A stretch of 64,000 bases of DNA from an uncultured Chthonomonas sp. (lineage in GTDB: Bacteria; Armatimonadota; Chthonomonadetes; Chthonomonadales; Chthonomonadaceae), in the NCBI GenBank assembly GCA_903919615.1, contig CAIXIX010000323.1, positions 1-64,000 on the forward strand, given 5' to 3'. Below are positions 5,420 through 52,966 of this stretch, in pieces; position 1 is the stretch's first letter; every line of letters begins with the position of its first letter. The notes beneath the pieces were generated by a model. It did not search any database. It was not told the origin of the DNA and worked only from the letters and a program-made list of their open reading frames with translations. The position numbers were made by a program, and so were the translations under genes.

Positions 5420-6988
5420 ATGAGGCAGATAGTTGCAGTACTGGGCACACCGCTCGACAAATTGAGCGTAGACCAGGTAATGGAGCGGCTCGATCAATTT
5501 GTTCAGGAAAAGCGCTTCCACCAGGTCGCGACCGCCAATACGGACTTTCTCATCAATGCTGAGTCAGACCCTGAATTGCGTCACATCTTAAGGCAGTGCG
5601 ATCTCGTTGTGCCAGATGGCATGCCCGTTGTATGGGCTTCAAAGCTGCTCGGCTCGCCCCTTCCGGAACGAGTTACGGGTGCAGATATTGTTCCCCGAAT
5701 TGCAGCGCTTGCGGCTGAAAAGGGCTATCGGGTCTACCTGCTAGGTGGAAATCCCGATGTCGCAAAAAAGGCGCAGGAGAAACTCGAGACCGATTACCCT
5801 GGCATTAACATTGTCGGCCGCTATTCCCCCCCGCTTGCGCACATCATTGAGATGAACAACGATCACATCCTCGAGGACATCTACCGCACGGAGCCAGATA
5901 TATTGCTGGTTGCATTTGGCTGCCCAAAACAGGAAAAGTGGGTGCACATGCATCGCCATCTGCTCGGTAAAGTGTCGATCTGCATCGGAGTGGGAGGCAC
6001 ATTTGATTTTATCGCCGGGCAGGTGCCGCGAGCCCCATCCGCGCTTCAGAAGAGCGGATTCGAGTGGACACATCGCCTGCTGCACGATCCAAAACGCCTA
6101 TGGCGCAGATACTCTCGAGATTTCGTGGAAGGCATAAGCTTTCTGGCGAAAGAGTGGTACACACTTCGCCGGCAGCGGCCTACCGGCAGGCACAAAATTG
6201 AGATTGCTTATGCTGGTGAGTGTGCGATCGTTTCGGTATCCGGTGACCTCAACCAGAAAACACTTCCTGAATTTATGGAGCAGTGCGATATCGCGCTGAA
6301 CCGCGGCGCAAGGCTAATTCTGGATTTTACCGAAATTGCCTATATCGATGCGGAGGCGGTAGGAGCCCTCGTCAACCTTCAAAAACGCGCAGGCTACTAC
6401 TTTAATGAGATTCGCATGCTTAAAGTACCGCCAAAAACGGCAAATGTACTTCACCAGAGCCACCTGAGTGACGATCTATTTCCTATGTCCGATTCCCTTG
6501 CGACTGCCATTACCGACAGTGACCAGGATGGGCTTTACTGGCACGTAAGAACGAACAGCGACTCCACTCTCCTTTCTGTTACCGTTAGCGGGCGAGCTAA
6601 CCAGCATACGGCTCTTCAACTGGAGATGACGTGTCAGAGCTTGATCAATATGGGAACACGCGTGGAAGTAGACATGAGAGGTGCAGCGTATGTGGATACC
6701 TTCCTGCTTGGAGCGCTAAACCGGCTTAACAACAGTGCAAAGGAACTGCTGGGGTCATCAAGCGAATCTGCAAATGACGGGCTCTACTTTGTTGCGGGCG
6801 ATGTGTTCAATAATATATTGATCATGGAAAAGATGACAGATCGCTTCAAGCTTATTTCGGCCCCAACGATGCCCGAAGACGCCATAGCGATGTCTCTGCT
6901 GGGGCTGGACCAAAACAGTGTTGATCGCTCAGATGTCGCTACTGAGGCGGTTAAAGCGGATACGGATCCTGTTCTAAAACTAATTTAG
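5420..6988 (+). CDS. WecG/TagA/CpsF glycosyltransferase fused to two STAS domains
   Basis: A 522-residue fusion. Residues 1-245 form a full WecG/TagA/CpsF (GT26) enzyme, with PDGMP near 63, GCPKQEKW near 168, GVGGTFDF and the C-terminal HRLLHDPKRLWRRY. This family transfers a sugar from UDP-sugar to a lipid-linked acceptor at the inner membrane. Residues about 258-360 and 373-490 look like two tandem STAS (anti-sigma-factor-antagonist-like) domains (ARLILDFTEIAYIDAEAVGA and RVEVDMRGAAYVDTFLLGAL). Both lack an obvious phospho-serine site, having Asp or Thr at the loop. The ATG follows GGAGG; a TTG four codons earlier is less likely because it overlaps that site. It flanks the exopolysaccharide locus and may supply its second sugar. 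Confidence 0.85.
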   Translation: MRQIVAVLGTPLDKLSVDQVMERLDQFVQEKRFHQVATANTDFLINAESDPELRHILRQCDLVVPDGMPVVWASKLLGSPLPERVTGADIVPRIAALAAEKGYRVYLLGGNPDVAKKAQEKLETDYPGINIVGRYSPPLAHIIEMNNDHILEDIYRTEPDILLVAFGCPKQEKWVHMHRHLLGKVSICIGVGGTFDFIAGQVPRAPSALQKSGFEWTHRLLHDPKRLWRRYSRDFVEGISFLAKEWYTLRRQRPTGRHKIEIAYAGECAIVSVSGDLNQKTLPEFMEQCDIALNRGARLILDFTEIAYIDAEAVGALVNLQKRAGYYFNEIRMLKVPPKTANVLHQSHLSDDLFPMSDSLATAITDSDQDGLYWHVRTNSDSTLLSVTVSGRANQHTALQLEMTCQSLINMGTRVEVDMRGAAYVDTFLLGALNRLNNSAKELLGSSSESANDGLYFVAGDVFNNILIMEKMTDRFKLISAPTMPEDAIAMSLLGLDQNSVDRSDVATEAVKADTDPVLKLI

Positions 6989-7043: not shown

Positions 7044-10000
7044 TTATTCCGGTTTGTTTATGTAAAGAGGGTTTTGCTTCAGATAATCCTGCACGCACCC
7101 GGTGAGCAGACGCCCAACGATTCGAACGCATGGATCAACAAGTATGGAGAAGTGCGTTCCAGGTGAAGGGATGATAATCAGCTTGCCTGCAACATAGGGC
7201 CCCCATCCCAGGTCTGGCTCGAACGCACGATTGGGCCTCTGTACCGCGGCTAAGAACAGGGTGACGTCGCCATCATAAACGCTCGGAACATATACTTTCG
7301 CTGCAGCTTCCTGGCCGAGACTGATCCGGTCCATCGTCTTCCTGAAACGGGTGTTCATTTCGCCTTCATTTGCAGAGTTTTTTACCGCCTTATTTACGGC
7401 GTTTTTCAATGTTCTCAACACATAGCGAAGCCGACGCTCGGCGCTTTCGGAGGCCTTGAAGTTCTCTGTGTGTGTAGCGATGCGGTACTTGATGTTCTGC
7501 CAACGAGACGCGGAAAGACCGGGAGTATCCACGGCCTGCGTATCGAACAGAGCAACAACGCCGACATGGTCACCCGACTCCTGCAATCGGCGAGCGACCT
7601 CAAATGCGACATTGCCACCCTGGGAAAGACCACATAAGAAATAAGGGCCAACTGGCTGGATATCACGAATCTGCTTAACATGATAGTTTGCCATTGCATC
7701 GATTGTATCGAACGGTTCCTGTGTCCCGTCTGTCCCCCACGGCACTAACGCATAGACGGGCTGGTCGGTGCCCAGGTGAAGAGACAGAGCACGGTAGGCA
7801 AGCGGACTACCCCCACCCGCCGCAGGCATGCAAAACATTGGCGGCAATGCCCCTTCAGAACGAAGCACCACCGCATTTGAAGCTACGTCACCATGCTGAT
7901 GGCGTCGGCGAATAAGCTCGGCCATCCTTCGGATCGTTGGAGCCTCGAGAAACGCTCCCAACGGGAGCGAAACGTTGATTGCCTGTTCGATCGCGACAAG
8001 CAGGGATACTGCGCGTATCGAATTGCCACCTAGATCGAAAAAGTCGTCACCAACACCGATTCGAGGCTTGTTTAGCGCCTTTTCCCACAACGAGGTCAGC
8101 TTCAGTTCGAGGTCGTCGCCTGCAGTGTCTTCCTCATCAATCGCCGCCGCATCATCCACCAAATCGGGAGATGGAAGTTTCCGCCGATCGATCTTTCCAT
8201 TGGGCGTTAACGGCATCTCCTTAAGGAAAATAAACTTGGACGGGCCCATCTTGAACGGCAATTGGTCGTTGACAAGGCCAGCAAGATCTGAACGCCCCGG
8301 CGGGGTCGGTGAATGGCTAACAATATACGCCACGAGTCGCTGCTCTTCAGAGGTCTTGCCTGTCGCTATTACTGCGACAGCATCAATGTCCGGATGTGTC
8401 CGCAGTATTGTTTCGATATCGCCAGTATGCAGTCTGTACCCGCGCAGCTTAATCTGATCATCGAATCGTCCGCCGCACTCCACCGCTCCAGAAGGAAGAT
8501 AAACTCCTCGGTCTCCCGTGCGATAAAGGCGAACCGTTAACGAATCGGTGAAGATATCTGGAATAAATGTACTTGCGGTCCTTACTGGGTCACCAACGTA
8601 GCCGCCGGTGAGATAGGCAGTACGGATGTAGATCTCACCGGGCTCTCCGATCCCCGCGAGATTCTGTGCAGGAGTAAGCACAAGAAGCTGAACATCTGCA
8701 ATGCCCTTGCCAACAGGAATTCGGTTCGATTCTGAACTCGGGCTTCCTGGAGGAGACGAAGCGTCACTCGCCGTTTCCACCACATTGAATCCCATGCCCT
8801 GGGGGGTTTCGGTAGCGCCGAAAAAGTTTACGCAGGTTACCCTTGGAGCAATTGCCGTAAGGCTATTTACCGTGGCACGGCTTAAGGTTTCGCCCGAAAA
8901 GAAAGCGTATCTCAAGTTCAGCTCGGATGTATCCTGAAGCGCTGCATGCGAGATGCAGATAAGGTCCCCAATTGCGGGCGTAAGATGAACTACCGAAATA
9001 TGATGATATTCCAACCAAGAGAGCAGCCGCGCAGTAAAGCCAACCTTTTCGGGATCTGGCACATACAGGGTTGCACCTATAGTTAGCGGTGCAAATATGT
9101 CTCGAATAAGCGGATCGTGCGAAAGGCCGGCAAGCATGGCAAAGCGATCCTGAGAGTTCAGGCCAAATGTTGATATATGCCATTGTAGGAAATGGGATAT
9201 CGGCCCGTGGGTTCCGATCATCGCTTTGGCGGCATTTGTAGACCCGGATGTAAATGCCATATAGGCGGCGTCAGTGGACAATGGAACAGATTCTGGTTCG
9301 ACCCCTGAATAGTCCCTAAGCTCTCCGGCTAAAATAGCCCCCCGGGTTGCGCTCAACCGGAGGCTACAACAGCAATCTGGGGCAGACATAGCAGTCACAA
9401 GGCCATCCGGAAACTGTTGAGCAACTTCGAATACGATGAAGCCTTTTGGCTTTGCAACCTGGATTCGCTGAGTAATCAGAGTTTCCGGATAACCGGCGTC
9501 CAGAATTACAAATGCCGCGTTAGCTTTCAATATCCCCAGCAGAGCTAGCGGCAGCCTTGCCGATCGATCCGCATACACGGCAACAAAATCACCTTTGCGA
9601 ATTCCATGTGCGGAAAGATAGCTCGCGATCCTGTTACTTGCCGTATTAAGTTCAGCGTAAGTCCAGCTATCGTGGATGTCGACCAGCGCTTCGTGAGTCG
9701 GATATCGCTTTGCCATCTCTATGAACTGAGTTACAATATCAAACGTGCATTCAGAGCCCAGCGCGATCGAAGGATCGGGCAGAACCATGCGAGCAGATTC
9801 TGTAACAAGAGAGAGCTTTGAGATTGGACAATCGGGATTAATGGTGACCTGCTCCAGCACCAGGAGCAGTTGAGCCTCGAGCTCTTTAAGGGGTAATGCT
9901 GGATCCGCAGTTCTGTCTAAAACCACCTGCGAAGCATCATTAACATCACAACAGAGTGTTACCGATGTGGTGATTTTTTGATGGACTTGGAATTCGTCTT

Positions 10001-10268
10001 GCAGTTGAAGCAAGGACCTAAAAGTGATATTCTCGTCGATCCAGATTCTGGCGTCCGTTTCAACAAATTCTTCCGACGCCGCACTCTCAATACTGAGGCA
10101 GTTACTCTCGTCGAGCCGAATGTTTAAAACACGTGCGGCCGCCAGATAAATCGACCGAGGTGAAACGCCAACCGTTAGCGCCAGTTCAGCAATAGATGCA
10201 GCCAAGGCTAACGGTACCATAACACGGTATCGAGCTTTATCATCAATTGCAACTGGATTTAAATTCAA
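7044..10268 (-). CDS. NRPS-like protein: C-domain stub, adenylation, carrier, thioesterase
   Basis: A 1074-residue protein. Residues 1-165 resemble only the C-terminal part of a condensation domain and lack HHxxxDG. The adenylation domain (about 175-700) shows FTSGSTNAAKAM (A3, with Asn for the usual Gly), FFGATETPQG (A5), YRTGDRG (A7), DDQIKLRGYR (A8) and PNGKIDRRKL (A10 lysine). The carrier domain has DLGGNS near 746, with the phosphopantetheine serine. A type I thioesterase (about 810-1060) has GLSQGG near 880 and a late GTHF histidine. It would activate one acid, load it and release or transfer it. The start appears to be TTG; no strong ribosome site is visible. It faces the WecG-STAS gene tail to tail. 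Confidence 0.85.
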   Translation of the reverse strand: MNLNPVAIDDKARYRVMVPLALAASIAELALTVGVSPRSIYLAAARVLNIRLDESNCLSIESAASEEFVETDARIWIDENITFRSLLQLQDEFQVHQKITTSVTLCCDVNDASQVVLDRTADPALPLKELEAQLLLVLEQVTINPDCPISKLSLVTESARMVLPDPSIALGSECTFDIVTQFIEMAKRYPTHEALVDIHDSWTYAELNTASNRIASYLSAHGIRKGDFVAVYADRSARLPLALLGILKANAAFVILDAGYPETLITQRIQVAKPKGFIVFEVAQQFPDGLVTAMSAPDCCCSLRLSATRGAILAGELRDYSGVEPESVPLSTDAAYMAFTSGSTNAAKAMIGTHGPISHFLQWHISTFGLNSQDRFAMLAGLSHDPLIRDIFAPLTIGATLYVPDPEKVGFTARLLSWLEYHHISVVHLTPAIGDLICISHAALQDTSELNLRYAFFSGETLSRATVNSLTAIAPRVTCVNFFGATETPQGMGFNVVETASDASSPPGSPSSESNRIPVGKGIADVQLLVLTPAQNLAGIGEPGEIYIRTAYLTGGYVGDPVRTASTFIPDIFTDSLTVRLYRTGDRGVYLPSGAVECGGRFDDQIKLRGYRLHTGDIETILRTHPDIDAVAVIATGKTSEEQRLVAYIVSHSPTPPGRSDLAGLVNDQLPFKMGPSKFIFLKEMPLTPNGKIDRRKLPSPDLVDDAAAIDEEDTAGDDLELKLTSLWEKALNKPRIGVGDDFFDLGGNSIRAVSLLVAIEQAINVSLPLGAFLEAPTIRRMAELIRRRHQHGDVASNAVVLRSEGALPPMFCMPAAGGGSPLAYRALSLHLGTDQPVYALVPWGTDGTQEPFDTIDAMANYHVKQIRDIQPVGPYFLCGLSQGGNVAFEVARRLQESGDHVGVVALFDTQAVDTPGLSASRWQNIKYRIATHTENFKASESAERRLRYVLRTLKNAVNKAVKNSANEGEMNTRFRKTMDRISLGQEAAAKVYVPSVYDGDVTLFLAAVQRPNRAFEPDLGWGPYVAGKLIIIPSPGTHFSILVDPCVRIVGRLLTGCVQDYLKQNPLYINKPE

Positions 10269-10519
10269 CTAGAGCACCCCGGCGCGAGTTAATGCTCAAT
10301 GCGTTGCTCTATTTTACTATCCCCGCATGAAATATTGATGATATGCGACCTGCACCTGGAAATGTTTTGAACAATTATTCGACTATTCAAGCCCATTACC
10401 TCAATGAAATCGCGTATTTGTGGATCCGCATGGCACCGAAAATCTTCGACGACGTTATGAAAATCGCATTCTATCGCAGTGAGTCATAAGCAAGAACAAG
10501 CGTTTTGGATGCCTGCAGT

Positions 10520-11209
10520 CTACGCAATCGCAAGGCTGGAGCGCATATTGTTGATCGCATGTCGAAGTAGAGAGCGTACGCTGGACGGCTGAATATCTAG
10601 CCTTGAAGCGATCTCTTCGAAGCCAAGTTCATCGTAGTAACGCCACACCAGGATCTTATACTGTCGATCGGAGAGCTTGTCAAATGCATTCGGCAGTACG
10701 CCTTTGAGTGATTTCAGTTCGAGCGCATCATCCCAATCGGACGTTGGATCCTCGGATTGGTTCGTTGTGGACTCTGCGGTAAAGAGTTCGAGACTGAGTT
10801 CGCGGCGGTTATTGCGCCAGTTCTGCTTCGCATAATTGAATATTGAGATGCTCAGTTGGCGAACGATGTAGGGTCGAAGCGGGATATTTCTGCTCGGATC
10901 ATACGCCTGAAGCAACAAGCAGAAGCGATAGTAGATTTCGCCCTCAAGGTCGTTTCGGATTTCCGCATCGTCGCCGTACTGCCTTTTTAGTCTCGCAACC
11001 AGTGGAGCGAACTCTGCATAAAGTGCGTCTCGGTCGGTCGCCAGATCGAGTGATGCATAGCCGGATTTGCGCGACGACGTAATGGTCAATGGCAGTCTGC
11101 TGTAATCTTCAGTCTTTAGCATCGGTGCGGTCATCTCGGTCTTCTCCTCATCAATTCCACTTGTTTGCTGATAGAGACCGTGGCGCATCGAATTCAACAC
11201 TGCAACCAC
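10520..11209 (-). CDS. RNA polymerase sigma-70 family factor
   Basis: A 229-residue sigma factor. A region-2-like segment spans about residues 40-115 (ending near the RPYIVRQLSISIFNYAK stretch). The C-terminal region 4 helix-turn-helix spans about 155-225 (LSDRQYKILVWRYYDELG, then FEEIASRLDIQPSSVRSLL). Region 3 and region 1 are absent, as in small alternative sigma factors. The start is GTG, chosen because AAGGAG lies seven to eight bases upstream; an ATG 27 codons in has a weaker site. It lies between the NRPS-like gene and the exopolysaccharide genes, with a conserved palindromic promoter element just upstream. It may regulate this locus, including itself. Confidence 0.8.
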   Translation of the reverse strand: MVAVLNSMRHGLYQQTSGIDEEKTEMTAPMLKTEDYSRLPLTITSSRKSGYASLDLATDRDALYAEFAPLVARLKRQYGDDAEIRNDLEGEIYYRFCLLLQAYDPSRNIPLRPYIVRQLSISIFNYAKQNWRNNRRELSLELFTAESTTNQSEDPTSDWDDALELKSLKGVLPNAFDKLSDRQYKILVWRYYDELGFEEIASRLDIQPSSVRSLLRHAINNMRSSLAIA

Positions 11210-11215
11210 TGTCGT

Positions 11216-11263
11216 CTCCTTACACGTGTATTGTATGTGGCCACCGTTAACGCTCCATTAATT
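11216..11263 (-). promoter_or_regulatory. conserved 48-bp promoter element of the sigma gene
   Basis: Read on the minus strand, the element holds the near-palindrome TTAATGGAGCGTTAA (11247-11261), then ACGGT, a TACAAT box (11230-11235) and GTGTAAGGAG, whose AAGGAG also serves as the ribosome site. The same 48-bp layout recurs at 18656-18703. No TTGACA box lies at the normal distance, which suggests an activator or an alternative sigma factor. Confidence 0.55.
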
Positions 11264-11271
11264 GGGTGTTT

Positions 11272-11294
11272 GGTTTTTGGTTTTTGGTTTTGGG
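11272..11294 (+). repeat. GGTTTTT tandem repeat
   Basis: Three GG pairs spaced by T5, followed by T4 and GGG, form a short tandem repeat directly upstream of the sigma-gene promoter element. It could in principle form a two-tetrad G-quadruplex on the plus strand. It is otherwise low-complexity sequence. Confidence 0.5.
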
Positions 11295-11357
11295 ACGGAT
11301 ATCGGGCATCTGGTTGGGAGGGGCGTGCTTGGCAGGACACGTGTTCTAACGGCGCAA

Positions 11358-11918
11358 TTAATCTGTTGTGTTGGTTTCTAAGGATCGAATGAGTTTGGCG
11401 GGTACGCCACCTACCAGTGTATTGGGTGGCACATCACGAGTGACGACTGCGCCTGCGGCGACGATTGCACCAGCGCCAACAGTAATGCCGGGGAGTATGG
11501 TGACGCCAGAAGCAATCCAGGCTCCATTTCCCACGGTAATCGGGCTCGTAAAGACCTTGCCTGCCCGATATTGCACGTCACCTAGTTCGTGGCTGGTTGT
11601 TAGGATCTTCACGTGGTTGCCAATTGCCACGCCGTGACCTATGTTAACAGCAGCGCCTGCATCGATGTAAATCCCCCTGTTAATGAAACAGCGAGATCCG
11701 ATAGTAATATTGGATCGCGATCTTGCAGTTGGCGCGATGTCGATTTTGCCCATAATCGTGGTTTCTGGTCCAACCGTCCAACCCAGAATTCGATACACCC
11801 TTGTTCGCGCTCGCGGCCCATACCCTTCCGGTATTACTTTCAACAAAAATAGACTTAACAGATTATACAGACTGTATCCGCCCAACTCCTGGCTAATTGA
11901 CTCGCGCATTGTCTCCAC
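11358..11918 (-). CDS. hexapeptide-repeat O-acyltransferase
   Basis: A 186-residue left-handed beta-helix acyltransferase of the maltose/galactoside O-acetyltransferase (WcaF/LacA) type. Imperfect hexapeptide repeats run from about residue 55 to 175, with VGNGAWIASGVTILPGITVG and VVTRDVPPNTLVGGVPAKLI typical of the family. The histidine in ILTTSHE is the likely catalytic base. It probably acetylates a sugar of the exopolysaccharide from acetyl-CoA. The GTG start at 11918 has GGAG eight bases upstream; an ATG three codons later is also possible. It is the last gene of the - strand glycosyltransferase run. Confidence 0.82.
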   Translation of the reverse strand: METMRESISQELGGYSLYNLLSLFLLKVIPEGYGPRARTRVYRILGWTVGPETTIMGKIDIAPTARSRSNITIGSRCFINRGIYIDAGAAVNIGHGVAIGNHVKILTTSHELGDVQYRAGKVFTSPITVGNGAWIASGVTILPGITVGAGAIVAAGAVVTRDVPPNTLVGGVPAKLIRSLETNTTD

Positions 11919-12038
11919 CGTTCTGTCTCCACAGGTTCTGGATGACCCGGCGTCCGGGGGGATTAAATTGGCCCGGGACGAATGGCATCAGTCTAATGTC
12001 CTGGTAAAGAGATAGTGAATTAATTCCCTGTTTTCGAT

Positions 12039-13169
12039 TTACGTAGGGATGTCGTTGCTCTGTTCTGAGATTGCGAAGCTGTTCGTTCCAGAGTATCCGG
12101 GTGCGGTAGCCTCAAGGGCGCCCGCAACGCTTGCAACCCATCGACGTAATGTCGCGTGCTTTTCCAGCCAAAGCCGGCCATTCTTGGATAGTCGATCCCT
12201 TAACTCATGATCGGCTCGCAGTTTTTCGATCGCAGCGCGAAGCCCTGAAATGTCACCCGGGTTAACAATCAACCCGTTAACACCATTTTCCACCACATCA
12301 GTCTGGCCGGTTGTTTGAGTTACGATAACGGCCTTCCCCATTGCCATTCCCTCAAGTAAAGTCGTGACTCCGGCCTGAAAGTCGTTCTCGTACAGGGGCA
12401 CGACTACGAAACTCGATGTGGCATAGAGGTCCCTGAGATCCGAGTATTCGTACCGTCTTGCATCCACATTTGCGGGGAGTGTCCGATTTTCAGTCTCATT
12501 GTTGTGCTTAGACCAGGGAGACGCCGCTGCAAGCTTTACAGTAAGATCCGGCATTTTCGCTACAGCCTCGATCAACGTTGGATAGTCCCGCCATTCGAGG
12601 CCAGCAGAGCAGATTTGATTCTCGTTTACTGGAGCATCGAGCAGCGGTCTATAGAACCGAGAGTCTGCATGAAATGGAATCAGGCTGAGTTTCTTCGCCG
12701 GTATTTGCAGGGATTCAATCCCAAACTGATACTGCGTCGTGGCATAGACGAAAATCGTATCCATCTGTCGGTGAACCTGAAGGCTGCGAAAGAAGAGCCT
12801 CTTCTTACCAGTTGAGAGGCGGTGCCCGATGGTTACGTGGCCAGGGCGACGCGGCGTAAGTTTGAAGAGAAGCGCGAGAGGAATTCCAACGTTTTCACCG
12901 TTCGTGAAAATGCAATCGTAGCTCTTGCGCTGCAGAAAACCTGCCAGCGCGAGGCCCGCATCGCGCCCAGCAAATTTACGTACCAGCCTGACAACAGCGC
13001 TGGCATGGTTCTCAACTGCCTTGTAGTCGAGAATCTCCACACAACCGGAATCGGCGGCACGAAGCGCGGAGGCTAGCGCATGATAGTCCATCTCAGGATG
13101 CGTATCGGCAGTAACCTTGTCTTCTAAATCGGTTTTAACAACGCTTGGAATGAGCAGCAACGATTTCAT
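12039..13169 (-). CDS. GT4-type glycosyltransferase
   Basis: A 376-residue GT-B fold transferase. The C-terminal nucleotide-sugar domain carries the EX7E-like segment TTLLEGMAMGKAVIV near residue 270, then TDVVENGVNGLIVNPGDI, as in GT4 enzymes. The N-terminal acceptor domain is divergent, with no clear match. It probably adds a sugar to the lipid-linked repeat unit at the cytoplasmic membrane; donor and linkage are unknown. It follows another GT4 gene by 23 bases in the same direction, so they are likely co-transcribed. Confidence 0.82.
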   Translation of the reverse strand: MKSLLLIPSVVKTDLEDKVTADTHPEMDYHALASALRAADSGCVEILDYKAVENHASAVVRLVRKFAGRDAGLALAGFLQRKSYDCIFTNGENVGIPLALLFKLTPRRPGHVTIGHRLSTGKKRLFFRSLQVHRQMDTIFVYATTQYQFGIESLQIPAKKLSLIPFHADSRFYRPLLDAPVNENQICSAGLEWRDYPTLIEAVAKMPDLTVKLAAASPWSKHNNETENRTLPANVDARRYEYSDLRDLYATSSFVVVPLYENDFQAGVTTLLEGMAMGKAVIVTQTTGQTDVVENGVNGLIVNPGDISGLRAAIEKLRADHELRDRLSKNGRLWLEKHATLRRWVASVAGALEATAPGYSGTNSFAISEQSNDIPT

Positions 13170-13192
13170 AGAATAGGATCTCCGCTCCCTCG

Positions 13193-14275
13193 TTATACAA
13201 CACTCTTAACGACATCTACTAGCCGCTGGTAGTTTGTGCGGGCATCAAAGTTTTGAAGAGCCACGGCACGCGCACGACGGCCCATTTTGACTCGCAATTC
13301 GCTATTGATTGCCAGTGTGCGGATAGCATCGGCAAGCGCAGCAGGGTTATGAACCGGCACCACGAGCCCCGTTTCTCCGTGAGTAACCGCCTCGGGCAGA
13401 GCCCCAACATCGGTGGTGATGATCGGACGACCAGATGCAAGCGCCTCAAGCACCGCAAGAGGGAGGCAATCGGCGAGGGTGGGAAATACGAAGATATCGG
13501 CCAGAGTAAATAACTCGAGCAATTTATCAGAATTAGGCCCAACATTTCGGTAGACGCTAACACCAGGCATTCCGTCTCCCACACCCTCCGTCTTTGTAAC
13601 GATGTGGAGATGGACATTGGTGGACTTCACGACGTTTGCGAATGCCTCTAACAACAGCATTCCGCCTTTGCGTTCGAAATCTCCTCCAACAAAGAGCAGA
13701 TGGATTGGGCGGGATGGATCCTGGACTGGCTCAGGAAGCTTCCACTTCTCCGTGTCGATACCAGGGGGGATCACGGTGATCTTCTCTGGCGCAACGCTGT
13801 AGTTATCCACCAGTGACTGTTTGGTCCATTCGGACCATGTGACGATTTTTCGGGCCGCTTTAAAAGCGCGAATATTCAGGCGCTGTTTCAACTGTTCTAA
13901 TTGGCTGTTACCAGAGGGCACATGGCCGTAGTACTTTCCAAGCTCATCGTATTGCATAGGCGTTGCATCGAGAGAGATAACAGATGGCAGCTTACGCATT
14001 AGCCCGGCCGAGAACAGAGAGGTAACCTGGGTGTGAAACAGGCATGCATCCAGCTTTCGCGCGATAGGCCGCAAAGCCATATAGGCGCCCAGCGATGCCC
14101 TTATGGACCAGTTTGACTTTACAACAGGCAACTTCGACCAGAAGCCAGGTGTGTTGTTAAATGGCAAGTCAACATAGGTAGGGACGACCGTAGCGTCCAT
14201 ATCCACGACCCGTTTCAAGTTCTCGGCATGAGTAGTATGGCCAAGAGAATATTCCAACATAAATCCGATGTTCAT
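13193..14275 (-). CDS. GT4 glycosyltransferase
   Basis: A 360-residue GT-B glycosyltransferase. The C-terminal half has VIPPGIDTEKW, LLFVGGDFERKGG and ADCLPLAVLEALASGRPIIT, the last holding the EX7E motif that binds the nucleotide-sugar. PEAVTHGETGLVVP follows. Its N-terminus (LGHTTHAENLKRVV) resembles that of the GT4 encoded at 17490-18590 (LRTQAINFERVV), so the two look like paralogs acting in one pathway. It lies nine bases after the preceding GT2 gene. The sugar is not predictable. Confidence 0.88.
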   Translation of the reverse strand: MNIGFMLEYSLGHTTHAENLKRVVDMDATVVPTYVDLPFNNTPGFWSKLPVVKSNWSIRASLGAYMALRPIARKLDACLFHTQVTSLFSAGLMRKLPSVISLDATPMQYDELGKYYGHVPSGNSQLEQLKQRLNIRAFKAARKIVTWSEWTKQSLVDNYSVAPEKITVIPPGIDTEKWKLPEPVQDPSRPIHLLFVGGDFERKGGMLLLEAFANVVKSTNVHLHIVTKTEGVGDGMPGVSVYRNVGPNSDKLLELFTLADIFVFPTLADCLPLAVLEALASGRPIITTDVGALPEAVTHGETGLVVPVHNPAALADAIRTLAINSELRVKMGRRARAVALQNFDARTNYQRLVDVVKSVV

Positions 14276-14284
14276 CTGTTTAGA

Positions 14285-15253
14285 TCACTTTGCGGCGGGA
14301 AGAGCCTTGGTGGCAGCGCTGACATAACATACATTGTAAAGCGCACTTAGAGCCGCCAAAGCCGGAGAGCGCGTTCCCAGGCGATAGAGCGTAACTGCAC
14401 ACTGTTTCAGCGTACCAACGATCGCCGGCAGCACAAACGGGCACACTCTGCATAGCCAACTAAGAAAACGCGTTGCAGGGTTGCGTTTGTTGATATTCGC
14501 CTCGATATCTGACCAATTCAGCAGGCCAGCCTCGATCCGACTAGCATCGAAGGACCCGTATGCTTTAGGTATCCGCAGCCAGGATTCGAAAGTGCGGTGC
14601 GGGCGGTGAATTCCATTTGCGGCAAAATCGAATTCGAACTTCATGCCGCACTCACGCTCCAGGCGCACGGCAAGTTCCACATCTTCCTGTCTGGTGTAAT
14701 ACTCATCAAAACCGTTGACCGCGCGCAGCCACTCTGTTCTAACAGAGGCATTGCCGCTGTAGAAATGAAAAGGTGCAGCAGGGGCGCCGTACCATTCTCC
14801 CCCGGGCTTAAACATATTGTAGATATCTTGAAGCTTTGCATGTTCCCACGCGATCCAGGCCGGCTCCTGCGTGCTCATTTCAGGATCAGGAGAGAGCGGT
14901 CCAAGAACTGCAATTCTATCGTTCTTGAAATGGTGGGATGCATGTACTGCAAGGAAACCCGGCGAGGGCTCAACATCGTCGTCGATAAACACGACAACGT
15001 CAAAATGCGCCTCCTGTATGCCGCGATTTCTCGCTCGGGAGGGGCCAGCATTGGACTGTGTTATCGCGCGAAGCGTATACGGGGAAGTTTTTGCATATGA
15101 GGCGAGGAGTTCATCCGTTCCATCCGTTGACCCGTCGGAGATCACAATCACTTCAAAATCTTCCGCTGGAAACGTCTGCTGCGTGAGCCCGTTGAGCGTA
15201 ATAAGAAGGCTGTCTTTACGGTTATAAGTCGGGATAACTACGGAAAGCTTCAT
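14285..15253 (-). CDS. GT2 glycosyltransferase
   Basis: A 322-residue GT-A fold enzyme. Visible motifs are SVVIPTYNRKDSL at the N-terminus, VIVISDGSTDGT, and SRARNRG followed by VFIDDDVEP, which is the metal-binding DxD. A hydrophobic stretch lies near the C-terminus. The start at MKLSVV is chosen because AAGGA lies seven bases upstream; the longer reading frame beginning at 15307 has no ribosome site and adds 18 residues not expected in the family. It probably builds the exopolysaccharide repeat unit with the neighbouring GT4 enzymes. Confidence 0.88.
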   Translation of the reverse strand: MKLSVVIPTYNRKDSLLITLNGLTQQTFPAEDFEVIVISDGSTDGTDELLASYAKTSPYTLRAITQSNAGPSRARNRGIQEAHFDVVVFIDDDVEPSPGFLAVHASHHFKNDRIAVLGPLSPDPEMSTQEPAWIAWEHAKLQDIYNMFKPGGEWYGAPAAPFHFYSGNASVRTEWLRAVNGFDEYYTRQEDVELAVRLERECGMKFEFDFAANGIHRPHRTFESWLRIPKAYGSFDASRIEAGLLNWSDIEANINKRNPATRFLSWLCRVCPFVLPAIVGTLKQCAVTLYRLGTRSPALAALSALYNVCYVSAATKALPAAK

Positions 15254-15485
15254 GGACATTTCCTTGGGTCTAAACCTGCGTAACCAGAACTGTGATCGGA
15301 TATTCATTTATTAGAGGCGCCCGGCAGATTATCATCTTTGAAAATCGAGAATGGGCGTCCAGTCCGGCGGGTTTTTTTGATATACCTCATTCACTCAATC
15401 AGGTTCCATGACACGAGTGTGTGTGCAATAGCATTTAAAAAAGAGCTACAAAACAATAAGCTGGAAATGGAGGGGGAGCAATTGG

Positions 15486-16430
15486 CTAGACGCTTAGACC
15501 TCTGAAGCCTCGAATAAGATGTGCAACTCCATACGCGGCTTCGCGCGCTGCGCTGGAGACCTTTGCACTCTTGCATTGTGCGAGAGCGAAGTTGAACTTA
15601 TCACTGGCTATTTTGAGTTCCTTTTTGCGATAGCCAATCTGCAATTCCCGGCGGCGTTCTGGCATTTTCTCGCAGATCGCCAGCACTTTTCGCCGGACAC
15701 ACCTTTCGGAGCGGCGCATCATTTTAACGTTGCTAGATGTGTTTGTAGCGTGGAGGCGGTACTGAAGCACCTTATCTGGAAGGAAACAGATATGGCCCAG
15801 AAGAGTCAGGCGAAACCAGAGATCGAGATCGTCACAACCTTTAAGATTAACGTCCGGATCCCATCCTCCGGCAGCATCATATGCACTTTTGCGAATGAGC
15901 GCCATACCCGGTGTAATAATCGAATCCCCGGCCGCGAAAACGGCAAAATCAGTGGGAGCCGACTGATCCATTGTGACAATGCTGTTTCCTGAAACGCGCA
16001 ACCGATTTTCGGGGACATATCCCGGAATGGGATGCCGTGCGAGCACGGTTCCGTCCCCGTCAATAAATTCAGGCTGCCCGTAGGCCGCAACCGCGCCGTC
16101 GTCGGCGCTCAATGCAGAATACAGCTTTTCGAGAGAGCCAGGCTTTAATATATCGTCGTGATCTAGGAACATCACGTATTTGCTGGAAGGGGACATCTCT
16201 GCATAGGCACGATTTCGGGCTGCGGCAATACCTGCGTTCGCCTGAGCCACGGCTATAATTCGGGGATCCAATGCCTCAAATTCCGTGAGAATCTCCGCCG
16301 TTTTATCCTTGGAACCGTCATTAACAATGATTAGCTCCCAATCGCCGAACGATTGGTCAATAACACTTTGAAGAGTAGATCGTAGGTGGCGCTCAGAGTT
16401 GTATGCTGGTATTCCAATGGATATGAGCAT
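15486..16430 (-). CDS. GT2 glycosyltransferase
   Basis: A 314-residue GT2 enzyme beginning ISIGIPAYNSERHL, with IIVNDGSKDKT, AAARNRAYAEM and the donor-metal motif FLDHDDILKPGS. Members of this family add single sugars from nucleotide donors to lipid-linked oligosaccharides. The C-terminal 80 residues are basic and contain an Arg/Lys-rich helical stretch that may contact the membrane. About 230 bases separate it from the next glycosyltransferase downstream, so a separate transcript end is possible there. Confidence 0.87.
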   Translation of the reverse strand: MLISIGIPAYNSERHLRSTLQSVIDQSFGDWELIIVNDGSKDKTAEILTEFEALDPRIIAVAQANAGIAAARNRAYAEMSPSSKYVMFLDHDDILKPGSLEKLYSALSADDGAVAAYGQPEFIDGDGTVLARHPIPGYVPENRLRVSGNSIVTMDQSAPTDFAVFAAGDSIITPGMALIRKSAYDAAGGWDPDVNLKGCDDLDLWFRLTLLGHICFLPDKVLQYRLHATNTSSNVKMMRRSERCVRRKVLAICEKMPERRRELQIGYRKKELKIASDKFNFALAQCKSAKVSSAAREAAYGVAHLIRGFRGLSV

Positions 16431-16555
16431 GGAGTGTCCTCAGACAATGGGACGTAATGCAAATTTGACGTTCGACGAATACGGTACGTGATCTGTTCGA
16501 CTCTAAACGCTAATATCCTGCGTGTTCATGACACTGCTTCTCTTATACGTGCTCG

Positions 16556-17506
16556 TCAGTAGGAGTGACGAAAGCGGAGCGTCTTGTTGTCCACAGGAGT
16601 TTTCCAGCCCTCCATAAATCCGCCAATAAACGCCGGGATTCGCGAAAAACCCTGTGGCCGTTTCAAATGGAGCACATCTCTAACCAATGAACCCAGAATA
16701 ACAACAAAGAATTCGTGTGCAGGAATGATCCAAGACGATTTATACCCGGCTCGGAGTGGCTTCGAATAGGCGGCGCCAAGTCCGCGCCACGAGGATCTGC
16801 CTAGCTGCTTGCCCTGTTCAAAGGTGCGAAATCCAAAGTGAGTAACCGAAACGGCGCTCGTCTCGTAAACTTTGTGCCCCATTAAGAGGGCTCGCAGCGC
16901 CATGTCGTCGTCTTCTGCGGCAGGAAATTCCGCGCCGCTACCAAGCTGCTCATCAAATCCGCCCATTGCGAGCGCCTGTTCACGACGAACTGCCATGCCG
17001 GCTCCAATACCCCTACTTCTCGGCTTATCGGCGATCGTGTCAAGAAGTGAACTGCTGCTGCGGAAGTAGCCTGGAATAAAACCGGCGCTGTTATCGCACG
17101 GCGCGGCTTCCACATTGCAGAAGGCCACGACAACCTCGGGATTACTCGCGAAGACGCCATGCATCTTCTCGAGCCAATCCGACGGAACCGTACAATCATC
17201 GTCGGTAAAGATAGCCAATTCGCCTGAAGCCGCGTTGAGCCCGATGTTACGCGCCCGGGAGAGGCCCTTGGTATCCGTGCGAATGTACCGAACACGAGGG
17301 TCGCTGGTGAATGGAGCTACGGTAGATGCAGTAATGTCGTCCGTGCTTTGATCTATTATAACGACCTCAAAGCTTGGATATTCGTTCTGCAGTATGGTTT
17401 CGATCGTCTCTTTGATTTCGGTGCCGCGGTTTCGCGTGCAGACGATCGCACTAATTAGTTGGCCTGGCAATGGTTCGCATTCAGAATTACTAGGCAGCGT
17501 AGGCAT
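16556..17506 (-). CDS. GT2 glycosyltransferase
   Basis: A 316-residue GT2 enzyme. Motifs include ISAIVCTRNRGTEI, VVIIDQSTDD, GLSRARNIGLN and IFTDDDCTVP (DxD). The C-terminal third has a hydrophobic segment (WIIPAHEFFVVILGSLV) that may anchor it. The ATG at 17506 is preferred because GGAG lies six bases upstream; a TTG four codons earlier overlaps that site. The start overlaps the end of the upstream GT4 gene by 17 bases, so translation is probably coupled. Confidence 0.86.
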   Translation of the reverse strand: MPTLPSNSECEPLPGQLISAIVCTRNRGTEIKETIETILQNEYPSFEVVIIDQSTDDITASTVAPFTSDPRVRYIRTDTKGLSRARNIGLNAASGELAIFTDDDCTVPSDWLEKMHGVFASNPEVVVAFCNVEAAPCDNSAGFIPGYFRSSSSLLDTIADKPRSRGIGAGMAVRREQALAMGGFDEQLGSGAEFPAAEDDDMALRALLMGHKVYETSAVSVTHFGFRTFEQGKQLGRSSWRGLGAAYSKPLRAGYKSSWIIPAHEFFVVILGSLVRDVLHLKRPQGFSRIPAFIGGFMEGWKTPVDNKTLRFRHSY

Positions 17507-18590
17507 GCTTTTCTCCAAGTGACTTCATGATCCCGAGGACTAACTGCAGGTTTTTTTCGCGGTCGAAGCGATCGACTGCGGTTTTCCGCGCTTCTACACC
17601 CATTTGCGTTCGAAGTTCGTGGTTTGTAACCAGCTCATCAAGATTGGCCTTCAGAGCGTCATAATCCTCTGCTTCAATCAGGCGGCCTGTGTTCGTACCA
17701 GCGAAGATCTCCGGAATACCACCCATTTTGGTTACTACTACTGGCATCCCAGCAGCCAGCGCCTCCAGAGACACGAGCGAGTAGCAGTCTGCACGTGTGG
17801 GCAGAGCAAAGACATCGCACATCTGGTAGAGATTGACTAGCTCAGCGCTGTTGTTGCCCAGGTTCTTGTGAACCACAACGCCAGCCTGTGGAACAACTTC
17901 ATCTCTCGTAACGATGTGCAGTTCAACTTTAACATCTTCGCTGATTTCGCTCATCCATCTCAGCAGCAGGTCGCCGCCTTTTCGCAGGAAATCGCCGCCT
18001 ACAAACAGGACGCGGACAACACCGTCGTTCTTTTTCGCTTCAGGATTGGGGCTATACAGGTTGACATCAACGCCCGGGGAGACCGGTGTGATTTTCTCTG
18101 CGGGAACTCCGTAGTCCTCGATCAGGCTCTTGGCCACCCACTTGTTCCATGGGAAGATGTGCTTTGCTTCCTGGTAGATTTTCTCGGTTGCGCGATGCTT
18201 CCAGCCGCCCATAAACTTGGCTCGCTTGCTGGTGTAACCGTAGTGATGGCCCATCTCTTCCATCTGCTTCGGCGTCATATCCATCAACATGAATGCGGGG
18301 CTCGCAGAAACCAGGTCGTGCACGCTCTTGGCTGCCCAGGTGGCCCAGAGCACGCCGTCATATTTTCGTGCATCGCCCAGACCGTTTCTGATTTCGGAGA
18401 TGCCGCGCATCGTACCTTTGATGCTGCTGGGCAGGCCCGGGATTTTGGAAAGCAATCCGCCGTTTTCGTATCGGACGGGAACCCATTTTGCTGTAACAGA
18501 AGAATCGGAAGATACTACGCGCTCGAAGTTGATAGCCTGAGTTCGAAGTCCTACTTGCTGGTCCATAACAAAAGCGAATTCCTGCATCAT
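17490..18590 (-). CDS. GT4 glycosyltransferase
   Basis: A 366-residue GT-B enzyme with PVSPGVDVNLYSP, VLFVGGDFLRKGG and the EX7E-containing CYSLVSLEALAAGMPVVV, then GGIPEIFAGTNTGRL. Its N-terminal domain resembles the GT4 at 13193-14275. The gene heads a - strand transcription unit: a conserved 48-bp promoter element ends about 65 bases upstream and a strong terminator lies just beyond that. A short leader hairpin (CCAGGT..ACCTGG, 18605-18620) precedes the GGAG ribosome site. Sugar specificity is unknown. Confidence 0.88.
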   Translation of the reverse strand: MMQEFAFVMDQQVGLRTQAINFERVVSSDSSVTAKWVPVRYENGGLLSKIPGLPSSIKGTMRGISEIRNGLGDARKYDGVLWATWAAKSVHDLVSASPAFMLMDMTPKQMEEMGHHYGYTSKRAKFMGGWKHRATEKIYQEAKHIFPWNKWVAKSLIEDYGVPAEKITPVSPGVDVNLYSPNPEAKKNDGVVRVLFVGGDFLRKGGDLLLRWMSEISEDVKVELHIVTRDEVVPQAGVVVHKNLGNNSAELVNLYQMCDVFALPTRADCYSLVSLEALAAGMPVVVTKMGGIPEIFAGTNTGRLIEAEDYDALKANLDELVTNHELRTQMGVEARKTAVDRFDREKNLQLVLGIMKSLGEKHAYAA

Positions 18591-18655
18591 CGTTCTCCAT
18601 GGCCAGGTCTTCTACCTGGTAAAGATTTTTGGAGTTGAACTGTAAGCGTCCTCAA

Positions 18656-18703
18656 CTCCTTACACGCACATTGTAGGACGCTACCGTTAATGCTCCATTA
18701 ATT
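18656..18703 (-). promoter_or_regulatory. conserved 48-bp promoter element of the GT4 gene
   Basis: On the minus strand this contains the perfect palindrome TTAATG-GAG-CATTAA (18687-18701), ACGGT, a TACAAT box (18670-18675) and GTGTAAGGAG. It matches the element upstream of the sigma-factor gene in order, spacing and total length. No canonical -35 box is present. Joint control of both units by one regulator is inferred. Confidence 0.55.
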
Positions 18704-18742
18704 AAAAAAGGGTGCGATCCCATTGTTAATGGGGTCGCACCC
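18704..18742 (-). terminator. intrinsic terminator after the serine-acetyltransferase-like gene
   Basis: A 15-bp stem with one G-T pair (GGGTGCGAYCCCATT and its complement, 3-base loop, 18710-18742) is followed on the minus strand by six T residues. This is a strong rho-independent terminator for the gene ending at 18768. It insulates the promoter element immediately downstream. Confidence 0.9.
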
Positions 18743-18767
18743 TGCATTGTCTTAATGATATTGTTAG

Positions 18768-19391
18768 TTACGCTTCGGCGGGAGCCTGTTCTTTCTTCAA
18801 TGGCAGAAGTTTTGCCGGCACGCCTACCGCAGTTCGGCCAGACGGCACATCGGAAACTACGACAGCATTTGCGCCGATACTGGCGCCATCGCCAATTGTA
18901 ATTGCTCCCAGAACGCGGGCGCCGGCGCCGATAAACACGTTATTTCCAATCGTTGGAAAAATGTGTTCGTTGCGCATTCCGATGGTAATGCTGCTGATAA
19001 GGCTAACATTGCAGCCTATCCTGCTTGCCATTACGACGGTTCCAACTGGATGAGGCACATACAATCCCGCTCCGATCTCTACCGACGCCGGTACGTCGAA
19101 GCCATACAGACAGAGATTCAGCCTGGATACAATTCCGGGAAGCACCGGAACATGCGCTCGCTTAAGCGCGAATGAGATGCGATACAGGAATGTAGCTCGC
19201 ATGCCGCATTGATTCCACAGCAGACGGAAACGATCCTGGGCCGAAACGCTGTTTGCAGCCTTATCTGGCATCCATATTCGTGCCCATGCGGCGAAATCGC
19301 CCGAGACGAGTTTCGCAAATCCATCGCGTTGGGACGAGGCGACAACTTCTTGCAATTCAGGGTGACCTCCCGGGCCTTGCGCATTCTCCAC
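18768..19391 (-). CDS. serine O-acetyltransferase-like hexapeptide protein
   Basis: A 207-residue left-handed beta-helix acyltransferase similar to serine acetyltransferases (CysE) and to WcaB-like enzymes of capsule loci. The C-terminal helix has VPHPVGTVVMASRIG, ITIGDGASIGANAVVV and GVPAKLL. The N-terminal helical part is shorter than in full CysE. In this setting it more likely acetylates the polysaccharide or a precursor than makes O-acetylserine. The start is GTG with AAGGATAAGG upstream. It follows the flippase gene by 16 bases and ends at a strong terminator, so it is the last gene of its operon. Confidence 0.82.
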   Translation of the reverse strand: MENAQGPGGHPELQEVVASSQRDGFAKLVSGDFAAWARIWMPDKAANSVSAQDRFRLLWNQCGMRATFLYRISFALKRAHVPVLPGIVSRLNLCLYGFDVPASVEIGAGLYVPHPVGTVVMASRIGCNVSLISSITIGMRNEHIFPTIGNNVFIGAGARVLGAITIGDGASIGANAVVVSDVPSGRTAVGVPAKLLPLKKEQAPAEA

Positions 19392-19407
19392 GCTCGAACC
19401 TTATCCT

Positions 19408-20865
19408 TTAAGCCTTTGATCGCCTGGAAAACATCTCGCGCATCGAAAGCAGATACTGCATATCCAGACACTTAAGCTTCCAGCAAGCGATGAGATAGAG
19501 CGGTAAGCCAGCGGCGATCGCCCCGAATACTGCGTTACTGTGGCGGGTGAAGTACATCAATATCCCCATCGGCACGCAGGCAGCCACTGCCTTGAAGAAG
19601 AGCTTGATGCTCTCGGTGCCGAAGGTGTGCGCTGGCAGCATCTGAATATAGGCCCATACCAGGTAAATCTCGAGCAGGACGTCGCTGAACGCGGCGCCGA
19701 TGGCTCCATTTGCCCAGAGCTTATGAGTAATGTATGATCCGGCAAAGCAGGCCGGAATGCCAAGAAAACAGGCAACGAACGAAGCGCGCATCATCTTCGA
19801 CTGCCCATCCGAAGATACGACTACGGTGCCAAGAACACATCCGAGGTAGAACATGAACACTGCTAGTCCGTCCACCTGAAGCACGGGCACGCTCCCGATA
19901 AAATCGTGTGGATAGTGCAGCAGGGCGATGAGCCGATCTGGTGCGCCAATGAAAATAGCAGTTATTGGAACACCGCAGATCACAATCATAGCAAGGAGCT
20001 TTCGAGCTAGCGCGTTGAACTGCTCGGCGCTATCTCGATGCAACCGCGACAGAGTTGGAAGCACCGCAGAGGTAAGCGCAACCGGTATGATCATTGTTGA
20101 TCCCACAAGCCTGAAGGCGGCCGCATACCAACCTACAGTTTTATCATTTGTTACGAGGTTAAGGACCACAGGGTCTGTTTGACCATAAAGTGTGCGGCAC
20201 ACGAGATAGCCTACAAAGGGCAAGCCAGCCGTTACAATGTATTTAATCGCCTGCTTTGTGGGCCACAGCCACCTCGCCATCATCAACCTAATGGTCGAGA
20301 GGTTAACCATTAATGAGACCGCACCGCTAAAAAGTGTTACGGAAGCCAGAGACCAGAGAGGCGCCTTCATGATGACTAGAACAATGGAGATCGTTGATGA
20401 AAGGCATTTCTCAATGATAATTGCGATGCTCTGACGGGGTATGTTTTCGTGACCCTGCATCGCGCTTCCGATGGCATCGTTGAGAGCAATCACCATCATA
20501 CCCAGGGAGCTTGCCACGACGAGGCTTCTGGTGATCGCTGGATACCCCATGGCCCGGATTAACAGGATTGCGCCGCAAGTGGCAAGCAAGCCAGTGACTA
20601 CTCTTACCGCTATGGCCGCAGAAAGCAGTTCCGCGGTTCGCTCACGATCGCGCGCGATCTCTCTTACCAGCACCGAGGAAGTCCCCAACGGCACCATAAC
20701 AGCAAATATCGAAACAAACGAGCCCGCGAACGCGAGCTTACCCAGCCCGGTTGCGCCAACGTATCGAGGCAAATAGAGGGTCACTATAAAGGTAAGCAGC
20801 CAGGAGATAGCCTGAGTCACCAGCGATGCCAGCACGTTGCGTGCTACGACTCGAGAACCGGTCAT
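19408..20865 (-). CDS. Wzx-like polysaccharide flippase
   Basis: A 485-residue integral membrane protein with about 12-14 hydrophobic segments. Its N-terminus (NVLASLVTQAISWLLTFIV, then LPRYVGATGLGKLAFAGSF) is typical of the oligosaccharide flippase/MATE-like group. It should move undecaprenyl-linked repeat units across the inner membrane before polymerisation. The start overlaps the stop of the O-antigen-ligase-like gene by four bases (ATGA), so translation is coupled. Length is normal for Wzx. Confidence 0.88.
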   Translation of the reverse strand: MTGSRVVARNVLASLVTQAISWLLTFIVTLYLPRYVGATGLGKLAFAGSFVSIFAVMVPLGTSSVLVREIARDRERTAELLSAAIAVRVVTGLLATCGAILLIRAMGYPAITRSLVVASSLGMMVIALNDAIGSAMQGHENIPRQSIAIIIEKCLSSTISIVLVIMKAPLWSLASVTLFSGAVSLMVNLSTIRLMMARWLWPTKQAIKYIVTAGLPFVGYLVCRTLYGQTDPVVLNLVTNDKTVGWYAAAFRLVGSTMIIPVALTSAVLPTLSRLHRDSAEQFNALARKLLAMIVICGVPITAIFIGAPDRLIALLHYPHDFIGSVPVLQVDGLAVFMFYLGCVLGTVVVSSDGQSKMMRASFVACFLGIPACFAGSYITHKLWANGAIGAAFSDVLLEIYLVWAYIQMLPAHTFGTESIKLFFKAVAACVPMGILMYFTRHSNAVFGAIAAGLPLYLIACWKLKCLDMQYLLSMREMFSRRSKA

Positions 20866-22376: not shown

Positions 22377-22521
22377 AACCGCCGATGTTGTGTTCTTTAC
22401 TAATTTTATGGCCGCGTCACCAGATGCAATTTGAAGCGCACCAGAAAAAGACTGCGTAGCGCTTTACTGATTTTTGATTCTTTCGTCACGGAAAGCAACG
22501 TCCATTTCGTCTGTGCGAGTT

Positions 22522-22680
22522 TTATGGTGGTTTAGGCGGCATTACCACAGGCTTTGTAAGCTCTCTGATCAGGATCGCCAGTATCCAGATTGCAAGGAAT
22601 ATCCAGGTCCGCCGCGTGATCTTTTTGCTGAACATGCCCACCGCAGCAAACATGAAGATCAGAGGGAGGATCAGATTCAC
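22522..22680 (-). CDS. 52-residue single-pass membrane protein
   Basis: A short gene, read directly from the sequence. It starts with GTG inside GTGA, sharing four bases with the stop of the preceding glycosyltransferase, and runs 53 codons to TAA. The translation begins NLILPLIFMFAAVGMFSKK, continues with a basic KKITRR turn and a second hydrophobic stretch (WIFLAIWILAILI), then ends KPVVMPPKPP. It therefore has one or two short membrane helices. Coupling and composition argue that it is real. Function is unknown; it may be an accessory subunit of the polysaccharide synthase. Confidence 0.65.
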   Translation of the reverse strand: MNLILPLIFMFAAVGMFSKKITRRTWIFLAIWILAILIRELTKPVVMPPKPP

Positions 22681-26336: not shown

Positions 26337-26448
26337 AACGAGATCGCCTTACTCATGGTGTGAACTTCAGGAGCCAGAAATTCCGGCGCTGTGTCCGAAG
26401 CCTTATTTATTTGTGTTCTAAGTATGTGCATCAATGGCATCATATGCG

Positions 26449-27621: not shown

Positions 27622-27639
27622 GATTCCGCTTCCTCTCAA

Positions 27640-52634: not shown

Positions 52635-52966
52635 CTGGATCTCCTTGACGACGATGGTGGATCACATGATAAGGACGGCCAGACAAATCTTTGCTCCCGA
52701 TAAGTGCAAAGATAAGATTGGCGAATATAATAAAATACCCCGGATCAGGGTGACGACGCGAATCCTTGAGGTCACGCTCTGGGTGCAGTGTTGCTCCTCA
52801 AGCAACATCGTGTTCGGCGATATTTAAATATAATACAGCAACCGAACATTTAAACATTCGGGCGCCACAGAACAAATACCGCAACTACATTCGTCAATAC
52901 GTAAAGTAATATCCAATCGTGCCCGTACTGTCGTTCGTGACGTACCCTTACAAAAAGGATATAGAT
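52635..52966. promoter_or_regulatory. divergent intergenic region with hairpins and a TATAAT box
   Basis: No gene is seen. It contains GTTGCT/AGCAAC (about 52790-52806), a TATTTAAATA palindrome, a TATAAT box (52829-52834) without a clear -35, and CCGAA/TTCGG arms around 52848-52870. The promoters of the divergent DUF5117 and STN genes must lie here. Confidence 0.4.

Follow-up and report, generated by a model that had tools for sequence, protein, structure and literature searches.

The DNA analysed here (the window, 64,000 nucleotides of a contig from an uncultured Chthonomonas sp., Armatimonadota) carries an exopolysaccharide cluster and, at the far end of this cluster and on the opposite strand, a gene that fuses a GT26 glycosyltransferase to two STAS domains. 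The features referred to below are:

5420..6988, + strand: GT26-STAS-STAS gene, 522 aa, with ATG at 5420 and stop at 6986-6988
5420..6169, + strand: GT26 (WecG/TagA/CpsF) domain with C-terminal appendage, residues 1-250 (Pfam, TagA alignment, structure match)
6182..6526, + strand: first STAS domain, residues 255-369, SpoIIAA-like fold (Pfam, structure match)
6353..6355, + strand: codon of E312, at the phospho-serine position of SpoIIAA/RsbV-type STAS in the first STAS domain (alignments)
6527..6859, + strand: second STAS domain, residues 370-480, degenerate in sequence (profile comparison, model)
6701..6703, + strand: codon of F428, at the phospho-serine position in the second STAS domain (alignments)
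7044..27639, - strand: exopolysaccharide cluster (domain matches)
22677..24029, - strand: polytopic GT2 glycosyltransferase, whose homologue lies directly upstream of the fusion in most Chthonomonadales loci

The open reading frame list preferred TTG 5408, upstream of ATG 5420, as the start of the fusion gene; we favour ATG 5420 because aligned fused homologues begin with MR at this position. Pfam placed Glyco_tran_WecG (PF03808) at residues 61-231 (E 7.9e-65, 218.2 bits against a cut-off of 27.4), and STAS_2 (E 7.3e-15) and STAS (E 8.1e-15) each matched two stretches of the protein; WecG and STAS families were the only ones that Pfam gave, with no SulP/SLC26 transporter domain ahead of STAS. 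The AlphaFold model of the entire protein, built from a 40-row alignment, had a mean pLDDT of 90.7 and a pTM of 0.88, with residues 500-522 below a pLDDT of 50, and matched TagA/TarA structures (PDB 5wfg, 7mpk) at Z 29-30. The modelled first STAS domain matched SpoIIAA (1thn) with Z 17.8 and an rmsd of 2.3 over 112 residues, and thus has a STAS fold. The second domain alone scored 20.9 bits with STAS_2, under the Pfam cut-off of 29.2, and its assignment was settled by four observations together: its profile matched that of the first domain in hhalign (probability 97.7, E 1.4e-12), the second domains of 11 of 13 homologues matched STAS (at E values up to 1), the profile matched TM1442 and SpoIIAA among PDB profiles, and a separate model of the domain (pLDDT 84.1) matched RsbV (6m36) with Z 14.0 and an rmsd of 1.7 over 100 residues. 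The description of a complete GT26 enzyme running on into two STAS domains, given in an earlier note on this DNA, is thus borne out by Pfam, profile comparison and AlphaFold models, and the domain search and structure prediction that the note proposed found the STAS fold in both domains of the C-terminal half.

The transferase half appears catalytically intact. TagA residues Thr37, Asn39, Asp65, Arg83, Gln167 and Glu168, as well as the appendage arginines, have counterparts in the alignment with the window protein, in which T38, D66 and R226 align with TagA Thr37, Asp65 and Arg221, as expected of a GT26 enzyme, while T38, N40, D66, R84, Q171, E172, R219, R226 and R230 are invariant across 40 rows of fused homologues. 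TagA/TarA (5wfg, 7mpk; PMC6493773) and the window protein have the transferase domain, catalytic residues and C-terminal appendage in common, whereas the TagA PDB chains, of up to 244 residues, are without STAS domains. According to parts of PMC6493773, TagA activity requires the C-terminal appendage, in which Arg221 plays an important part, and a switch between an inactive dimer and an active membrane-bound monomer has been proposed for the enzyme. By extension from TagA, for which this role is established, the window protein probably associates with the membrane and, as part of an exopolysaccharide pathway, transfers a sugar onto one that is already linked to undecaprenyl diphosphate. In the AlphaFold model, a long helix (residues 224-250) closes the appendage and the first STAS domain starts a few residues later, a placement that would be suited to influencing the appendage-dependent activation step. 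The fusion ties in with the TagA model in this respect, as activity there depends on the folding of the appendage, which in the window protein lies immediately ahead of STAS.

The exopolysaccharide cluster encodes an OPX/Wza-like export protein, a chain-length-like protein, a P-loop protein, GT2/GT4 glycosyltransferases, a flippase, a Wzy-like polymerase and hexapeptide acyltransferases. In the exopolysaccharide loci of Chthonomonadales relatives, the fusion typically lies between polytopic GT2 and hexapeptide acyltransferase genes, with chain-length, P-loop, GH44 and Wzy-like genes also nearby. No HATPase_c_2 or SpoIIE match, and hence no cognate kinase or phosphatase partner, was found among the 476 stop-to-stop frames of the 64 kb window. 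The cluster also contains a gene for a sigma-70-like protein with regions 2 and 4 (10520-11209, - strand), to which the earlier note had linked the STAS domains; this link was not supported, and we rejected the sigma factor as a partner, because none of the other fusion loci available here had a homologue of it nearby. Elsewhere in the cluster, one protein combines adenylation, carrier protein and thioesterase domains (7044-10268, - strand). Further along the window, the open reading frame at 52919-53842 (+ strand) ends in a long glycine-rich repeat (GGAGGQGGAG), in a region of long overlapping frames on both strands.

Relatives were sought in one genome per species across 84,980 species, and the best 80 of 490 relative loci were used; a scan of contigs with the single protein as query returned no relative, and an N-terminal alignment as query recovered them. 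Among the matches listed and in domain searches, GT26-STAS or GT26-STAS-STAS proteins occurred in Armatimonadota, Acidobacteria, Chloroflexi, Desulfobacterota, Gammaproteobacteria, Nitrospinaceae and Lentisphaerae, with a weak GT26-STAS match in Marinimicrobia. In a GT26 tree of 137 rows, which was a quick search over rows picked by similarity to the window protein rather than a full survey, all 70 STAS-fused proteins fell within one clade of 76 rows (SH-aLRT 98), and the 61 rows outside it were all unfused. Six rows of the clade are unfused, which suggests that STAS domains were lost there or escaped detection. The earlier note had called for a search for the same architecture in other phyla, and this search placed fusions from several phyla in a single clade. 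Repeated independent origin is not favoured, given that every fused row of this similarity-picked sample lies in that clade, and a one-off or an assembly chimera was rejected, as 16 of the 31 genomes searched in the window's order, its own among them, carry fusions. The most likely account, within the reading to which we incline below, is that the GT26-STAS tail arose from one old fusion and then spread through several phyla. Two longer architectures were also seen, a 697-aa GT26-STAS-STAS protein with an extra C-terminal NUDIX domain (L096, 7992-10085) and an 867-aa GT2-GT26-STAS-STAS protein (L179, 4347-6950).

In SpoIIAA/RsbV-type STAS domains, we take the phosphorylated serine to be the second S of a D-S-S motif, and we read the third position of this motif as the phospho-site in 70 fused rows. 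The window protein has D310-A311-E312 in the first STAS domain and D426-T427-F428 in the second, so that neither carries a D-S-S serine, and it scored 48.1 bits with the anti-sigma factor antagonist model TIGR00377 (NCBIfam), below the cut-off of 53.45. The remark that a phospho-acceptor serine was not obvious was therefore right. According to parts of a review (PMC8256260), serine 58 of SpoIIAA sits in a conserved loop. Both tail domains have the fold of SpoIIAA/RsbV, and relatives of the window protein keep D-S-S/T-G-L, but SpoIIAA and RsbV are standalone proteins that act on anti-sigma factors, whereas the STAS domains of the window protein are without the serine.

Across the family, the phospho-site is retained unevenly. 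Outside Armatimonadota, Acidobacteria and Chloroflexi, 27 of 38 rows had S or T at the site in at least one STAS domain, as did both Chloroflexi rows, 3 of 17 Armatimonadota rows and none of the 13 Acidobacteria rows. The canonical D-S-S/T motif was kept by Chloroflexi and by many Desulfobacterota and Gammaproteobacteria members, and in many Desulfobacterota both STAS domains were canonical. D or E occupied the site in 4/17 Armatimonadota and 8/13 Acidobacteria rows; E was found in the window protein, its paralogue L048, the same-genus L063 and L055, and other Chthonomonadales had Q, H, A or G. We do not claim that E or D locks the domain as a phospho-mimic, as Q, H, A and G occur at the site too.

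Relatives in other phyla are often encoded beside partner-switch genes. In Desulfobacter vibrioformis (L094), the gene order is RR-SpoIIE, HATPase_c_2, STAS, initiating sugar transferase and fusion. RR-SpoIIE and HATPase_c_2 directly follow the fusion in a gammaproteobacterium (L106), RR-SpoIIE, STAS and HATPase_c_2 follow it at L096, and STAS, SpoIIE and HATPase_c_2 lie downstream of it in a member of Anaerolineales (L069). At L183, a fused RR-SpoIIE-HATPase gene is followed by a BacA/UppP gene and then by the fusion; the BacA/UppP-type gene (7081-7980) thus stands between the RR-SpoIIE-HATPase and GT26-STAS-STAS genes, and frames at L184 and L141 look alike by sequence. A separate gene with nucleotidyltransferase-like, hexapeptide and bacterial sugar transferase domains follows the GT26-STAS gene in Desulfobacterota and Chloroflexi (L094, 9569-11083; L091, 3109-4650; L069, 9493-11124; L071, 3133-4833), its sugar transferase domain being partial in L094 and L091.

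Neighbours were counted with models grown from three, two and two seeds in fetched flanks of up to ~8 kb. SpoIIE occurred in the flank of 9 of 29 two-STAS loci outside Armatimonadota and Acidobacteria. An even draw of 247 Desulfobacterota genomes gave SpoIIE at 4/10 fused loci (three already known) vs 0/30 unfused loci, and a second draw of 241 genomes of the class gave 5/10 new fused loci vs 0/26 unfused. Pooled over 43 distinct two-STAS loci outside Armatimonadota and Acidobacteria (among them L185 and L189, whose GT26 domain is incomplete in the frame), SpoIIE was present at 15, usually accompanied by an RsbW-type kinase, vs 0 of 56 unfused GT26 loci of the Desulfobacterota draws, which are part of those listed in both (Fisher 7e-7, with related loci treated as independent, as in all our Fisher p-values). 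The five second-draw positives, taken as one sub-lineage because of their same gene order and ~31-32% identity to the query, give 1/6 vs 0/26 when counted once (p 0.19), and the new positives of the first draw alone give 1/7 vs 0/30 (p 0.19). On the tree, the positives fell into several separate groups (Chloroflexi; L096/L117/L098/L106; L086/L097; L094; L141). SpoIIE was nearby in 9 of 32 rows with an S/T site vs 2 of 38 without (p 0.018), the exceptions being L086 and L089. The remaining 28 of the 43 loci had no SpoIIE in the fetched flank, some because contigs end, nor did the flanks of the single-STAS Desulfobacterota loci L142 and L152. In a wider set, one of 22 unfused loci (L105) had a SpoIIE-HATPase gene ~5 kb off. 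Among Armatimonadota and Acidobacteria fusions, SpoIIE was nearby in 0 of 30 and any S/T site was present in 3 of 30; a STAS gene and a CBS-HATPase gene lie nearby at L052/L080. A Pseudomonadota replicate of 397 genomes returned the seed itself as the only full-length match.

The account to which we incline, with slightly better than even confidence, is that the fusion is a GT26 enzyme with a formerly partner-switched STAS tail, and that the window lineage keeps the STAS pair as a fixed docking or allosteric module. Given that many relatives keep the phospho-serine and have genes for a SpoIIE phosphatase and an RsbW-type kinase next to their own, we infer that the ancestral enzyme was most likely controlled by partner switching of this kind. 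Whether the preceding appendage could fold at the membrane, where it would complete the active site, may have depended on whether the kinase had bound or phosphorylated the STAS tail. The Chthonomonadales lineage of the window has lost the phospho-serines and lacks a kinase gene close by, and the STAS pair would most likely serve as a fixed protein-docking or allosteric module in a polysaccharide assembly complex. With E312 and F428 at the sites, no kinase or phosphatase gene in 64 kb and a sigma factor without counterparts elsewhere, the enzyme encoded in the window is probably catalytically intact, its STAS pair serving as such a module and not as a phospho-switch. The earlier proposal that the fusion ties sugar transfer to a phosphorylation or partner signal therefore finds support in relatives from other phyla, which often keep the serine and have SpoIIE and RsbW-type genes nearby, but not in the window protein itself, which has lost the serine in both STAS domains and has no SpoIIE or HATPase_c_2 in 64 kb; likewise, anti-sigma kinases, for which a search nearby had been proposed, were absent from the window and present, as RsbW-type/HATPase genes, beside the fusions of relatives. 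That partner switching directly gates a polysaccharide glycosyltransferase via a STAS tail fused to GT26 is a more tentative proposition, which we hold with somewhat less than even confidence.

It is unlikely that the STAS pair is only an oligomerization or localization scaffold that was never a signalling receiver, although in the window it might then set the dimer or monomer state of GT26. The window protein is without phospho-sites, and its second STAS domain is poorly conserved (mean column identity 34% vs 48% for the first) and missing from single-STAS relatives (L040, L048, L050, L063), as such a scaffold would allow; however, many relatives have canonical phospho-motifs, and SpoIIE/HATPase genes are enriched beside them. 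We consider it quite unlikely that the neighbouring partner-switch genes target a sigma factor or the transcription of the polysaccharide locus, their closeness to the fused STAS being incidental. Classical SpoIIAA/RsbV systems do act on sigma factors (parts of the review PMC8256260), and standalone STAS genes at L094, L069 and L086 could be the real targets, but partner-switch genes were found at none of the 56 unfused GT26 loci of the same Desulfobacterota draws, the serine is kept within the enzyme itself, and the Vibrio fischeri analogue SypA acts below transcription via an unknown protein, as far as PMC10120452 describes it in part.

Regulation of the window protein in trans by RsbW-type kinases of its own genome (C399, C187), through binding alone or through a residue such as T427, seems very improbable: the genome encodes two strong SpoIIE/HATPase_c_2 proteins, both with a canonical STAS gene as neighbour, and one such kinase gene lies near an initiating sugar transferase and another GT26, but each kinase thereby has its own adjacent STAS with intact D-S-S, whereas the window protein has E312 and F428 at the site. 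We give equally little credence to the STAS domains being a metabolic sensor that binds a small ligand or carrier (nucleotide, lipid or acyl carrier protein), since the structural matches, which include the ACP-bound YchM STAS (3ny7, Z 13.0), show fold only, even though SpoIIAA, a STAS of the same fold, binds GTP according to parts of the review PMC8256260.

We found no paper describing a GT26-STAS fusion in the open-licence PMC literature. The available portions of PMC4517449 and PMC10120452 describe SypA, a STAS protein that is encoded in the syp locus of V. fischeri and is active when unphosphorylated; it is controlled by SypE, a response-regulator protein that has both serine kinase and phosphatase activities. 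Like the STAS domains studied here, SypA belongs to a polysaccharide locus, and it acts below transcription, but it stands alone as a 105-aa protein, its target being described as unknown, whereas the STAS domains of the window protein are fused to a pathway enzyme. In Anabaena PCC 7120, all4160 likewise joins a glycosyltransferase and STAS in one protein, although its STAS is single and N-terminal (both from parts of PMC8256260, the likeness being by description only), and heterocyst envelope polysaccharide synthesis depends on it (parts of PMC4390870).

While the SypA target is described as unknown in the portions of PMC10120452 at hand, the GT26-fused STAS directs attention to sugar transfer itself. 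Because STAS is covalently joined to GT26 in this family, often beside a cognate kinase and phosphatase, the question of what STAS proteins of polysaccharide loci bind can be tested with purified proteins. If gating is real, the undecaprenyl-linked sugar transferase step would be a direct, non-transcriptional output of partner switching and a candidate target type for orphan polysaccharide-locus STAS proteins such as SypA, and the window lineage would be an evolved version freed from the switch.

The window's own genome holds further STAS and GT26 genes. A second fusion, with a single STAS domain, lies on contig C86. On C399, where the STAS motif reads F-V-D-S-S-G-V-G, the same strand carries between 210 and 6411 (L176) genes for an HNOB (haem-NO-binding) protein, a PAS-HNOBA-SpoIIE-HATPase protein, the canonical STAS, an initiating sugar transferase and a fusion of a partial sugar transferase to GT26, so that unfused STAS beside GT26 and fused STAS coexist in one genome; this row looks like NO-sensing control of polysaccharide initiation.
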